A stretch of 64,000 nt of DNA from Chloroflexota bacterium (GTDB taxonomy: Bacteria > Chloroflexota > Dehalococcoidia > JACPEP01), in contig JACPEP010000031.1 in the NCBI GenBank assembly GCA_016183425.1, positions 1-64,000 of the forward strand, in the 5' to 3' direction. The notes beneath the pieces were generated by a model. It did not search any database and was not told the DNA's origin. It saw only the letters and a program-made list of their open reading frames with translations. The translations under genes were made by a program, and so were the position numbers. This document shows positions 110-3,825 of this stretch, one piece after another. The number at the start of each line of letters is the position of its first letter. Positions within the stretch are counted from its first letter, which is position 1.

Positions 110-1051
110 TCACAGTATCCTACCTATTCCACTATACGTGTCGATTTCCCCCATCACCCCAATGGTTTCCTTGAGGGCAATCGCCACCTTCTGGTATTGG
201 GTAAGATCATCATAGGTCAATGTCCGGCCCTGGCGGTCCTTGAGCCACTTTTGGCATACCTGGTAGCCACCGATGTGAAAACCCCAGACTTCAGGCGTTA
301 TGCCTTCAAAATACTGGGCTTTATTGATATAGACCCGCCCATTAGCCTCATCATAAGCCACCTTCTCCACCATGTTTGAGCCGGATACGGGATAGCGGAT
401 GTTGGGGCTGTCGAGGGCGGGGGATTCCATGAGGTGCAAAGCTACCAGATCGGCCCCCTTTTGTGCCAGCGCCCGGAAGAGCCTCACATCAGAGGTAAGG
501 GGCAGCCGAGGGAAGTCTATCTTCAGGAACTCAGCGTAGCGGCTGCGGTAGGAAGGCGAGTGAAAGACGGCATAGGCGTAGTTGAAGATGTCCTCGGGGG
601 TTACGACCTCACCCCCTGGCCCCCTCTCCGTCGACGGAGAGGGGGTATTCAAGATGTCGGCTGGAGCACTGCCCATTTGCGGAGAGGGAGACACTAAGGC
701 AGTGGAGATCTGGTGCAGCACTTTATCCAGGTAGTGAAGCACCTCGTCATTGGAGAAGCGGAGCACGCGCAACCCCCGGCTCTCCAGGTACTCTCGCCGA
801 GTCTGGTCTTCCCCGTGCTGATATTGATGGATGGGTCCCTCCACCTCCACCACCAGGCCCGCCTCAGCGCAATAGAAGTCAACGATGAACCGCTCCATGC
901 TGTGCTGTCGCCTGAACTTAAAGCCCATCAACTGGCGATTGCGCAGGTGTTGCCAGAGGCGCTCCTCCGCCCCCGTTGGCTTTCTTCTCATCTGGCGGGC
1001 CAGGGGCTTGAGTCTGGCCCATAACTCTGGTGAAGTGTGCCAGCCTTTCAC
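110..1051 (-). CDS. DUF559 endonuclease-like domain joined to the displaced C-terminus of a type IIG R-M enzyme
   Basis: Two unrelated parts share one frame. Residues 1-119 look like DUF559, a VSR-like presumptive endonuclease: FRRQH, IVDFYC with Asp58, VVEVEG with Glu69, then LRVLRFSNDEVL. Residues 120-150 are a Pro/Ser-rich linker translated from a palindrome. Residues 151-313, starting TPEDIFNYAYAVF and including SRYAEFLKIDFPR, read as the C-terminal end of the upstream R-M protein, which otherwise lacks this end. The start is GTG, overlapping the upstream stop as GTGA, so translation is probably coupled. The DUF559 part is typically a stand-alone protein of about 120 residues. Whether the chimera is functional, or complements the truncated R-M protein in trans, cannot be told. 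Confidence 0.75.
   Translation of the reverse strand: MKGWHTSPELWARLKPLARQMRRKPTGAEERLWQHLRNRQLMGFKFRRQHSMERFIVDFYCAEAGLVVEVEGPIHQYQHGEDQTRREYLESRGLRVLRFSNDEVLHYLDKVLHQISTALVSPSPQMGSAPADILNTPSPSTERGPGGEVVTPEDIFNYAYAVFHSPSYRSRYAEFLKIDFPRLPLTSDVRLFRALAQKGADLVALHLMESPALDSPNIRYPVSGSNMVEKVAYDEANGRVYINKAQYFEGITPEVWGFHIGGYQVCQKWLKDRQGRTLTYDDLTQYQKVAIALKETIGVMGEIDTYSGIGRIL
620..645. repeat. Perfect 26-bp palindrome of the cccctctccg family
   Basis: The arm ccccctctccgtc is followed directly by its exact reverse complement. It is translated in frame as the TPSPSTERGPGGE linker between the DUF559 domain and the R-M C-terminal piece. The same family occurs three more times beyond the other end of the DUF559 coding region. 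Confidence 0.9.
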
Positions 1052-3825
1052 CTCATCCTCTGGCCCCCTCTCCGTCCACGGAAAGGGGGAAGGTATGGAT
1101 GGGCCTTCTGGCCCGGGTCCCCTCTCCGTCCACGGAAAGGGGGAAGGTATGGATGGGCCTTCTGGCCCGGGTCCCCTCTCCGTCCACGAAGAGGGGGAAG
1201 GTATGGATGGGCCTTCGGGATTAAGGGGTGAGGTACAAATCGCACCCCCAGCCGCCTCTCCACCTCGGCCACAAAGGCAGGGCTCAGGTTTGGGCGACGA
1301 CCGCTATCAAACTGCATCTCGCCTTCAGAGGGGTAGAGGTAGAGAGGGAAGACACTGTCAATTGTCTTGAGCGATACCGCCACATGTTCAACTGCGTGAT
1401 TGCTACAGATTACATGCTGCCAGGCCCCAATTGTTTCGACCCTACGGGGGCAAATGAGACCAAGGTTCTCCCCCGCCAGCATGTGGCGCATGACTTCGTG
1501 GCGGGTACGGGTGACAACGGTTCTGTGGTATACCACATATCGCAAATCAAACGGACGGTACAAGATCTTGGTGACGGACTCCAACGAAAGGCCATGCTTG
1601 GTAGCTAGTCGGTTGGCTTCTTCTTCGGTGAGACCGATGGTTTCTCTGTCTTGTCCCGTAACGATGCCCACGCTGTTAACAGGGAAAATATCGGTTACCT
1701 TCCATCCCCTCTCGTATTCAGGACGGAGCTCCTCCTCCCGACGGACAAAGAAATAAAAGGGGCTATCGGGCTTGAGCTCGGCCCAGTCCGTGGTGCTAAC
1801 ATCCGTTTCCGAGAGATTACGGTACTTGGCCGCACGAAGCCCCCAAAGCTCGGCGTGGTGCACTCTGGCTGGTCCCTCCGGTACCGATAGGACAGACGCC
1901 CCCGTCTGTCCTATGTTACGAACAGGCGAGGGCGCCTGTCCTACGGGTTCTTTTACAAACAAGGCAATGGCCACCCCCTGCTGGATGTCAAAGACGTTCT
2001 CGTCCTTGCCGCCGTCCGGGGCGGCCTCCCTTTTCTTGACATTGCCGTGCAGGTCGAAAATGTAAATCTCGTCAAAGGTGTTCATCAAAGACTGTCTCAT
2101 GCCGCGGAAGGTGGGGTTGTCCAGATAGGCGTGGTTGGTGATGAAGCCCAGGATGCCCTGCCCGGTGCGCTCGATGCGCCACTGCCCAAAGCGGATGAAC
2201 TTCACATAGTCGTCCTGAAGCCATTTGGGGTTTTTCTCGCCCAGGGGTTTACCGTCAACCGTCTTATACTGCTCCACCAGTTGCTTTGCCCAGGCACCCT
2301 TATTTGCCGAGTGCCCGGAATAGGGCGGATTGCCCAGCACCACCATGATGGGCTTTTCCTTCTTGATTTCAGCGGCGGCATTGGCTTCCTCGGTTATCCA
2401 CTGGGCAAAGAGGGTCTCCGAGCGCTTAATGGCTTCCTCCAGCGTGTTGGTGAGGTAGATGCCCAACCGTGGGACAGACGCCCCCGTCTGTCCTCCCCTT
2501 TGAACAGGCACCCCTGCCTGTTCTACCCTTGCCTGCCCTCCCAAATCATAGCCCGTCTCCTGCAAGAGCAGCCCCAATTTCAGATGGGCCACGGCGTAGG
2601 GAGCCATGAGCAGCTCGAAACCGAAGAGGCGGGGCAGGAGCTTCTCATCCACGTAGTCATTCCACATACCCTTTTGCCCCTGGCTGACCATCGCCTGATA
2701 AATCTCGTTCACCACCATATACAGGAAGGTGGCGGTGCCCACCGCCGGGTCAAGGATATAAATATTGGGGTCAGCCAGTCCCCGGGGTTTATTGAAACGG
2801 GTCTTCAGGAGGTAGTCAATGGAGCGCACGATGTAGGAGACCACCGGCTCCGGCGTGTAATAAACGCCGCGCATCTCCCGCACCCTGGGATCATAGTCGG
2901 CGAGAAAGGTTTCGTAGAAGTGCACCACTGGGTCTTCCCTGGCGGTGCGCTTGCCAAAGTCTCGGAGGATGGATGCCATATCTGCCTGGGCCAGCATCTC
3001 GGCCAGGTCGTCCACCAGCCAGGCGATGCGGTCGTCTAGATCGGGCCCGGCGATGTGGTTGAAGAGCTTGCGCAGAAATGGGTTGGTCTTGGGCAAGAGG
3101 TAAGCGGCATTCTGGCGGGTGAACCCCTTGCCTTCGGAGTTTGTGCCCCGGGCGGCGAAGAGGCCGTAGGCGATGGTCTGAGCATACATGTCGGCGAACT
3201 GCCCCGGGGAGAGGTCGGGAATCAGGTTATCGCGAAAGGCAGATAGCTGAGTGTGGAGGGAACCCCTTTCCCTTTCCTTTTCAAAGGCGGCGATAATAAG
3301 GTCACGGATCAGGCGTGTCCGGCGAGCCATATGCTGTGCCAGTTCTCTGGGTGTGCCAACGGCCTCGGCCCGATGGCTGAGAAAGCTGGCCAGGAGCTCG
3401 GCGACATCTTCGATTCCTACCCCATCCCCCTTGACCTTGCCGTCTTTCGCCAGCATACCCAGACGAGCCGAGAGACGCCGCTCCCCGTCCACATACCAGC
3501 GAAACTCCAGGTAATTAGTGAGGACAAGATTGGTGAGGGAATCCCGATAGCGCTTAAGCTGGTCGGTCTGCTCCACCTCGTCCAGGCTCTTGTCTATGTC
3601 CTTGGCCTCCACATAGCCGACGGTAACTGAGCCCCTGGTGATTAGGAAGTCCGGGGCGCCGCATTCGACGCGCTTGGGCTCGTTCAGGGCCATTATCTCC
3701 TGGCTGATGGATTCAAGCAGTGACTTAAGGGCAGGATAATAGGTACGCTCAGTGGCCACCCCCGCTCTCAGGTTGCCGTCAATAGCGGCTACATACTGCT
3801 GAAACGGCTTCGTTCTCTCGCTCAT
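1048..3825 (-). CDS. Type IIG/ISP-like restriction-modification enzyme, C-terminus displaced
   Basis: The N-terminal nuclease signature is PD-(D/E)XK-like: GAPDF with Asp59, then YVEAKD with Glu73 and Lys75. A helical linker follows, then an N6-adenine methyltransferase core: SAM motif I LDPAVGTATF around residues 358-367 and catalytic NPPY at 499-502. The last 60 residues are not R-M sequence but translated 54-bp repeats. The missing 163-residue end lies in the next frame downstream, beyond a DUF559 module. Two further low-complexity inserts (about residues 428-452 and 628-650, both containing GQTGASV) come from palindrome pairs. The gene probably encoded one polypeptide for cutting, methylation and target recognition; activity now is doubtful. 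Confidence 0.8.
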   Translation of the reverse strand: MSERTKPFQQYVAAIDGNLRAGVATERTYYPALKSLLESISQEIMALNEPKRVECGAPDFLITRGSVTVGYVEAKDIDKSLDEVEQTDQLKRYRDSLTNLVLTNYLEFRWYVDGERRLSARLGMLAKDGKVKGDGVGIEDVAELLASFLSHRAEAVGTPRELAQHMARRTRLIRDLIIAAFEKERERGSLHTQLSAFRDNLIPDLSPGQFADMYAQTIAYGLFAARGTNSEGKGFTRQNAAYLLPKTNPFLRKLFNHIAGPDLDDRIAWLVDDLAEMLAQADMASILRDFGKRTAREDPVVHFYETFLADYDPRVREMRGVYYTPEPVVSYIVRSIDYLLKTRFNKPRGLADPNIYILDPAVGTATFLYMVVNEIYQAMVSQGQKGMWNDYVDEKLLPRLFGFELLMAPYAVAHLKLGLLLQETGYDLGGQARVEQAGVPVQRGGQTGASVPRLGIYLTNTLEEAIKRSETLFAQWITEEANAAAEIKKEKPIMVVLGNPPYSGHSANKGAWAKQLVEQYKTVDGKPLGEKNPKWLQDDYVKFIRFGQWRIERTGQGILGFITNHAYLDNPTFRGMRQSLMNTFDEIYIFDLHGNVKKREAAPDGGKDENVFDIQQGVAIALFVKEPVGQAPSPVRNIGQTGASVLSVPEGPARVHHAELWGLRAAKYRNLSETDVSTTDWAELKPDSPFYFFVRREEELRPEYERGWKVTDIFPVNSVGIVTGQDRETIGLTEEEANRLATKHGLSLESVTKILYRPFDLRYVVYHRTVVTRTRHEVMRHMLAGENLGLICPRRVETIGAWQHVICSNHAVEHVAVSLKTIDSVFPLYLYPSEGEMQFDSGRRPNLSPAFVAEVERRLGVRFVPHPLIPKAHPYLPPLRGRRGDPGQKAHPYLPPFRGRRGDPGQKAHPYLPPFRGRRGGQRMR
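1064..1216. repeat. Three tandem 54-bp repeats, each with an imperfect palindrome
   Basis: Units begin at 1065, 1119 and 1173; the last is partial. Each holds cccctctccgtccacg followed by an imperfect reverse complement, then a conserved tail aaggtatggatgggcc. The 54-bp period is a multiple of three, and on the minus strand it is translated as a repeated 18-residue unit (KAHPYLPPFRGRRGDPGQ) that forms the foreign C-terminus of the truncated R-M protein. Confidence 0.9.
1888..1941. repeat. Pair of hairpin palindromes inside the R-M gene (copy 1)
   Basis: The first hairpin has the arm taggacagacg, loop cccc and an exact 11-bp complementary arm (1888-1913). The second (1920-1941) has gaacaggcg against cgcctgtcc with one mismatch. 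A closely related pair lies about 580 bp away in the same gene. Both are translated in frame as an extra segment that includes GQTGASV. Confidence 0.85.
2472..2523. repeat. Pair of hairpin palindromes inside the R-M gene (copy 2)
   Basis: The hairpin ggacagacg-cccc-cgtctgtcc (2472-2493) is followed by gaacaggca-cccc-tgcctgttc (2502-2523); both stems are perfect. The two-hairpin arrangement matches the copy at 1888-1941, which indicates a dispersed composite element rather than chance symmetry. Confidence 0.85.

Follow-up and report, generated by a model that had tools for sequence, protein, structure and literature searches.

The window analysed here, a stretch of 64,000 nucleotides from a Chloroflexota bacterium (contig JACPEP010000031.1, positions 1 to 64,000), contains a Type ISP-like restriction-modification gene that is split by a DUF559 nuclease module bordered by palindromes. 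The Pfam profile Type_ISP_C is cut between its positions 180 and 182. Its first portion is found in the open reading frame (ORF) at 1048-3825 and its second in the ORF at 110-1051, both on the minus strand, and a full DUF559 domain sits between the two halves. An earlier note, made from the letters of the window alone, had proposed that such a module splits the gene between VRFVP and TPEDIF, and the break in the profile confirms this. The comparison of orthologues across this point, which the note had suggested, agrees: 16 intact Type ISP proteins, which share 47-73% identity with the upstream part, are uninterrupted there and carry no DUF559. In the orthologue G135 the site reads LEFIEDSRGDFEQTFGPEDIFNYA, and in the window it reads VRFVP, insert, TPEDIFNYA; compared with the 16 orthologues, about 10 linker residues have been lost. 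A DUF559 domain 63% identical to that of the window lies at the same ISP linker in G049, with a different palindrome and in a gene whose N-terminal part is broken.

Terminal inverted repeats, as used to define insertion sequences and miniature inverted-repeat transposable elements, are present at the ends of the insert (10 bp, perfect), and their positions set its bounds (Table 1). Read on the coding strand, from 1234 down to 606, the element starts with ACCTCACCCC and finishes with GGGGTGAGGT. It is exactly 629 bp long, so that the length in the earlier note stands and its bounds of 602-1230 are corrected. The perfect palindrome at one end had also been described correctly, as had the three repeats, of one family with it, at the other; the first repeat copy shares 98% and 85% identity with the second and third. 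Shuffling the window yielded no such palindromes or repeats, and none are expected by chance. All junctions are open and give two coupled proteins, as had been stated, with the ORFs overlapping as GTGA at 1051-1048.

Table 1. Inserted element and split host gene, with positions in the window
Feature	Position	Strand	Details
Whole inserted element	606..1234	.	629 bp; perfect 10-bp inverted-repeat ends; missing from 16 orthologues
Terminal inverted repeat ACCTCACCCC	606..615	+	Perfect; near-identical unit adjoins DUF559 in G027
Terminal inverted repeat (GGGGTGAGGT on +)	1225..1234	-	Perfect 10-bp match
26-bp perfect palindrome CCCCCTCTCCGTCGACGGAGAGGGGG	620..645	.	
DUF559 nuclease domain, GTG start at 1051	695..1051	-	Pfam PF04480, 7e-36; fold as 3hrl and I-Bth0305I
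54-bp palindromic repeat, copy 1	1062..1115	.	
54-bp palindromic repeat, copy 2	1116..1169	.	
54-bp palindromic repeat, copy 3	1170..1223	.	
Upstream fragment of the host gene: Type ISP-like methyltransferase through first half of specificity domain, running into the repeats	1048..3825	-	N6_Mtase, Eco57I, Type_ISP_C 49-180
Downstream fragment of the host gene: remaining half of specificity domain, following DUF559 in one fusion	110..605	-	Type_ISP_C 182-340

The AlphaFold model of the DUF559 protein (pLDDT 87.6) matches 3hrl, which is itself a DUF559 structure, and the homing endonuclease I-Bth0305I; the match to Vsr is weaker. Similarity to I-Bth0305I is found with both profiles (E 4e-5) and Foldseek (E 1.6e-4), and the protein resembles the EDxHD homing endonucleases in fold and catalytic domain. 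No Y1 HUH transposase domain is present, as Pfam finds DUF559 only and the fold is Vsr/EDxHD-like. One earlier paper counts a DUF559 gene among the EDxHD homing endonucleases (PMC9403480).

To examine DUF559 in other genomes, 80 loci were picked from named genomes on protein similarity alone and scanned for perfect palindromes with arms of at least 9 nucleotides. Contigs were scanned with a 7-sequence profile; a broader 16-sequence profile was too diverse. Palindromes are concentrated next to the gene, at 5-10/kb up to a distance of about 100 bp, with 9.9/kb at 50-100 bp upstream and 7.5/kb within 50 bp downstream, and fall to 0.1-0.4/kb beyond 400 bp. In the known RAYT/REP (REPIN) systems, a nuclease gene has inverted palindromic flanks, solo units and doublets are dispersed, and the clade of the enzyme matches the type of repeat (PMC2817692, PMC3116915). 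A palindrome within 250 bp of the domain was found in 68/80 and 25/29 DUF559 loci, compared to 12/30 RAYT and 2/30 Vsr loci. A CCCTCYCC-type core is present in 113/153 and 50/58 of the DUF559 palindromes and in no RAYT palindrome. This core, CCCTCYCC..GGRGAGGG, is common to loci of many phyla, which according to record titles include Proteobacteria, Desulfobacterota, Chloroflexota, Nitrospirota, Planctomycetota, Spirochaetes, and others. Palindromes lie on both sides of the gene in 44 of the 76 testable loci, and in a pattern test, recognizable unit tails pointed inward 43 times and outward 14 times. The units have CCTCACCCC/GGGGTGAGG arms and no GTAG or CGTC tag of the RAYT/REP type. Moreover, related DUF559 proteins tend to have the same stem type (26 changes over their tree versus a shuffled mean of 36.2; 0/200 shuffles as low). 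Terminator hairpins are ruled out, because the units flank the gene on both sides and sit in frame within coding genes.

The two parts also occur together at the level of whole genomes. Among 151 genomes from the phylum of the window, the median palindrome count is 27 with a strong DUF559 match and 1 without it (Mann-Whitney p=1.7e-12). The same holds for families (23/24 versus 10/34, p=3.6e-7) and in a within-family permutation (p=0.001). A regression of repeat number in 101 genomes gave t=6.4 for DUF559 and t=0.7 for RAYT, which rules out RAYT as the mover of the CCCTCYCC repeats. Solo compound units were found in 31/151 genomes, with a maximum of 74 copies and a control near 0, and are commoner in genomes with DUF559 (p=7e-5).

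The genome of the window (G000, 2.70 Mb) has three further DUF559 loci: a domain within type III mod, bordered by a palindrome unlike that of the window, a frameshifted gene between CCCTCTCC palindromes, and a helicase-linked domain with no palindromes. Dispersed palindromes of the form CCCTCTCC..GGAGAGGG number 25, compared to 1 for the reversed pattern. The same ISP gene that holds the element also contains, twice and in frame (window 1890-1944 and 2472-2526), doublets of a second palindromic family, ACAGACGCCCCCGTCTGT. These resemble the RAYT type, and G000 holds RAYT-like genes (C11, C44). A repeat-coded insert, SPLPLGEGQGRG, lies without DUF559 elsewhere in the specificity domain of an intact ISP orthologue (L142 in G097).

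Palindrome-bounded DUF559 genes at non-homologous sites, which the earlier note had proposed to look for, were found. In G027, which belongs to another family, a DUF559 gene whose product is 68% identical to that of the window lies between unrelated genes, and its border unit ACCTCACCCCCTAGCCCCCTCTCCGTCAACGGAGAGGGGG is near-identical to ACCTCACCCCCTGGCCCCCTCTCCGTCGACGGAGAGGGGG of the window. DUF559 and palindromes also sit in frame within methionine synthase (three genomes in the first survey), type III mod, and DUF1156 methylases. Two inteins in type III mod of G026 and G017 (L247 2246-6316 and L248 2525-6292) have DUF559 as nuclease domain; these intein calls are based on a weak intein-profile match backed by the junctions DPTC...VHN|CGSGTT. 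In Azospirillum, an exact empty site was sought and was not clean, as the neighbouring nirK is also missing in A. ramasamyi.

In methionine synthase (MetH) of one family, the linker after EADIDEII occurs in three states: empty, with 24-40 residues; repeat-only, in G203, G221, G238, and G222; and repeats-DUF559-repeats, in ten genomes. The ten DUF559 sequences form a single clade (support 95), and five changes or more are required to explain their occupancy on the MetH tree; G205 was left outside this count and was included in the tests of tree conflict. In these, the DUF559 alignment rejects the MetH tree (approximately unbiased test, p=0.0007), the MetH alignment rejects the DUF559 tree (p=3e-5), and the distances of the two proteins are uncorrelated (r=0.17, p=0.19). 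Because occupancy is patchy, the DUF559s form one clade, and the trees reject each other, the pattern is, judged from the sequences, one of site-specific horizontal spread, and the tree conflict fits what homing predicts. Other repeat-coded inserts, of the VDTYTSTQ type, were also seen in this linker (L264 in G061, L298, L301, and L305), and the linker is therefore a hot spot for several repeat families.

The DUF559-associated unit CCCTCTCCC..GGGAGAGGG-TTAGGGTGAGGG corresponds to a motif that is already known from Escherichia coli. The intrastrand triplex motif (TM, earlier PIT), CCCTCTCCC-loop-GGGAGAGGG-TTAGGGTGAGGG, has 23 copies in MG1655 and occurs in more than 260 genomes; its loci are unstable, and its describers found no mobility genes nearby (PMC4666352). 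The hairpin CCCTCTCCC/GGGAGAGGG together with the third strand GGGTGAGGG is present in the flanks of many DUF559 loci; the units of the window have the TM hairpin and arms, but other spacers. The single DUF559 gene of MG1655 is ycjD, between sapF and fabI. Its last codons lie inside a half motif, and TM_ECO no. 9 (1351204-1351239) follows 167 bp downstream; given 23 motifs spread over 4.64 Mb, the estimated probability that a random gene lies this close to one is about 0.4%. The gene was found in 3366/5426 E. coli genomes. An empty site in E. coli was not clean, since Nissle-type strains hold an efflux operon at the ycjD position. In Nissle 1917 (L339) this is a resistance-nodulation-division (RND) efflux and TetR operon, and homology to K-12 resumes just past the TM motif. 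No report of a pairing between DUF559 and these repeats was found among the open-access papers searched, where none of the 14 that name DUF559 deals with such repeats in its title or abstract; subscription papers and preprints were outside the search.

We consider it probable that DUF559 belongs with the CCCTCYCC palindromes to a single selfish system, in which a homing-type nuclease installs itself together with its palindromes. DUF559 would be a small EDxHD/Vsr-type endonuclease, whose gene is bordered by, or lies inside, a compound palindrome with outer arms CCTCACCCC/GGGGTGAGG and an inner hairpin CCCTCTCC..GGAGAGGG. Its likely action is to recognize and cut at or close to the units, or the linkers that they target. 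When a REP-DUF559-REP copy then serves as the repair template, the nuclease would be installed with its palindromes (homing). Gene-less short units of 46-66 bp may be non-autonomous derivatives that the nuclease maintains or spreads in trans, as RAYTs do with REPINs. Units are often open in one frame and can therefore be accommodated in the linkers of functional proteins. In the window, it was the linker of a Type ISP specificity domain that took up the element, which left the gene as two coupled ORFs. The data demonstrate the in-frame insertion, the association of the two parts and their co-occurrence in genomes, the presence of the same pair at different sites, and the horizontal spread at MetH. 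The fold, the inteins, and the phylogeny suggest that DUF559 cuts at or near the units and thereby copies nuclease and repeats; we also infer the choice of the cut DNA, homing, and the mobilization of units in trans. Homing fits MetH best, and a RAYT-like action on solo units, the main rival, may also be active.

Several observations weigh against this reading. No target-site duplication was seen at the element of the window, where linkers are too variable, and the nuclease itself may be inactive, because it has E at position 71 in place of a D that is at least 90% conserved. For 12 of the 80 DUF559 genes, no palindrome of this kind lies within 250 bp, and at least 5 palindromes are found in 28/101 genomes without DUF559. 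The MetH trees are based on short proteins from 10 genomes. Proof of transposition through identical recent DUF559 copies within one genome failed, as the multi-copy genomes hold only old degenerate tandem copies; tandem clusters of degenerate genes and fragments are seen in L234 (G077), L243 (G061), and L237 (G005). Finally, solo copies of the compound unit of the window, CCTCACCCC..GGGGTGAGG, are absent from G000. Since the unit of the window, with its GTCGAC-type centre, is also found within G000 only at this site, this fits a joint arrival of nuclease and palindromes.

The main alternative is that DUF559 acts like a RAYT, excising and transposing palindromic units in trans, and that the gene is a mostly vertical, domesticated passenger. 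Low gene copy number without identical paralogues, inverted flanking units with mostly inward tails (43:14), the many solo units, and a stem type that tracks the protein clade would all be expected of it. We regard it as unlikely, as DUF559 spreads between genomes at one site in MetH, and the enzyme is a homing-endonuclease-type nuclease without HUH transposase chemistry. Less probable still is that the repeats are moved otherwise, or by replication slippage, and that DUF559, perhaps a Vsr-like repair enzyme, merely tends to insert beside them or acts on lesions caused by them. The instability of TM/PIT loci (PMC4666352) and the repeats without DUF559 in some genomes point this way, but related Vsr genes are unflanked (2/30), repeat number follows DUF559 and not RAYT, and in G027 this nuclease is again accompanied by the same unit. 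That DUF559 was recruited as a restriction-modification nuclease domain, with incidental palindromes, is suggested by several DNA methyltransferases among the in-frame hosts (Type ISP, type III mod, DUF1156), but is very improbable and as a general account already contradicted by its presence in methionine synthase, between ordinary genes (sapF-fabI), and in inteins, and by orthologous restriction-modification genes without it.

A broader proposal, which we advance only tentatively, is that DUF559 is a widespread class of mobility enzymes that recognizes the TM/PIT hairpin or triplex and copies nuclease and repeats to new sites. The orphan repeats, including the 23 copies in K-12, would then be what a single homing-type element, with no relation to RAYTs, has left behind. 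For repeats long known as orphans, the pairing described here already supplies a first candidate mobility enzyme and a tie, across many phyla, to a conserved family of unexplained function, with the K-12 gene ycjD as a named test case. DUF559 would be a second enzyme class, unrelated to RAYT, for the RAYT/REP way of life. The pairing is also a possible source of repeat-coded residue stretches inside bacterial proteins.

Several known systems resemble this one in part. Rickettsia RPE-type palindromic elements are in-frame inserts in the protein linkers of coding genes, as are the DUF559 units; we know of no nuclease partner for them. The TM/PIT motifs have the same sequence as the DUF559-associated units, but were described without an associated mobility gene, whereas here they are tied to DUF559, including ycjD. 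With I-Bth0305I and the EDxHD homing endonucleases, DUF559 shares the fold, profile similarity, and service as an intein nuclease; it differs in being only about 110 residues long, where no additional DNA-binding region was seen, and in that most copies lie between palindromes and in no intron or intein. The parallel with RAYT-REP pairs, but with a VSR-like nuclease, that the earlier note drew holds for co-occurrence and for architecture, with a gene between palindromic units that are probably inverted, dispersed solo units and doublets, and a correlation of enzyme clade with repeat type, but the enzyme is EDxHD/Vsr-like. At MetH, the evidence resembles homing more than RAYT-type transposition. 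In contrast to RAYT/REP, the enzyme is PD-(D/E)XK/EDxHD-like and not HUH Y1, the units lack the GTAG/CGTC tag, and the DUF559 system spans many phyla, also enters genes in frame, and at MetH resembles a homing element in its behaviour.
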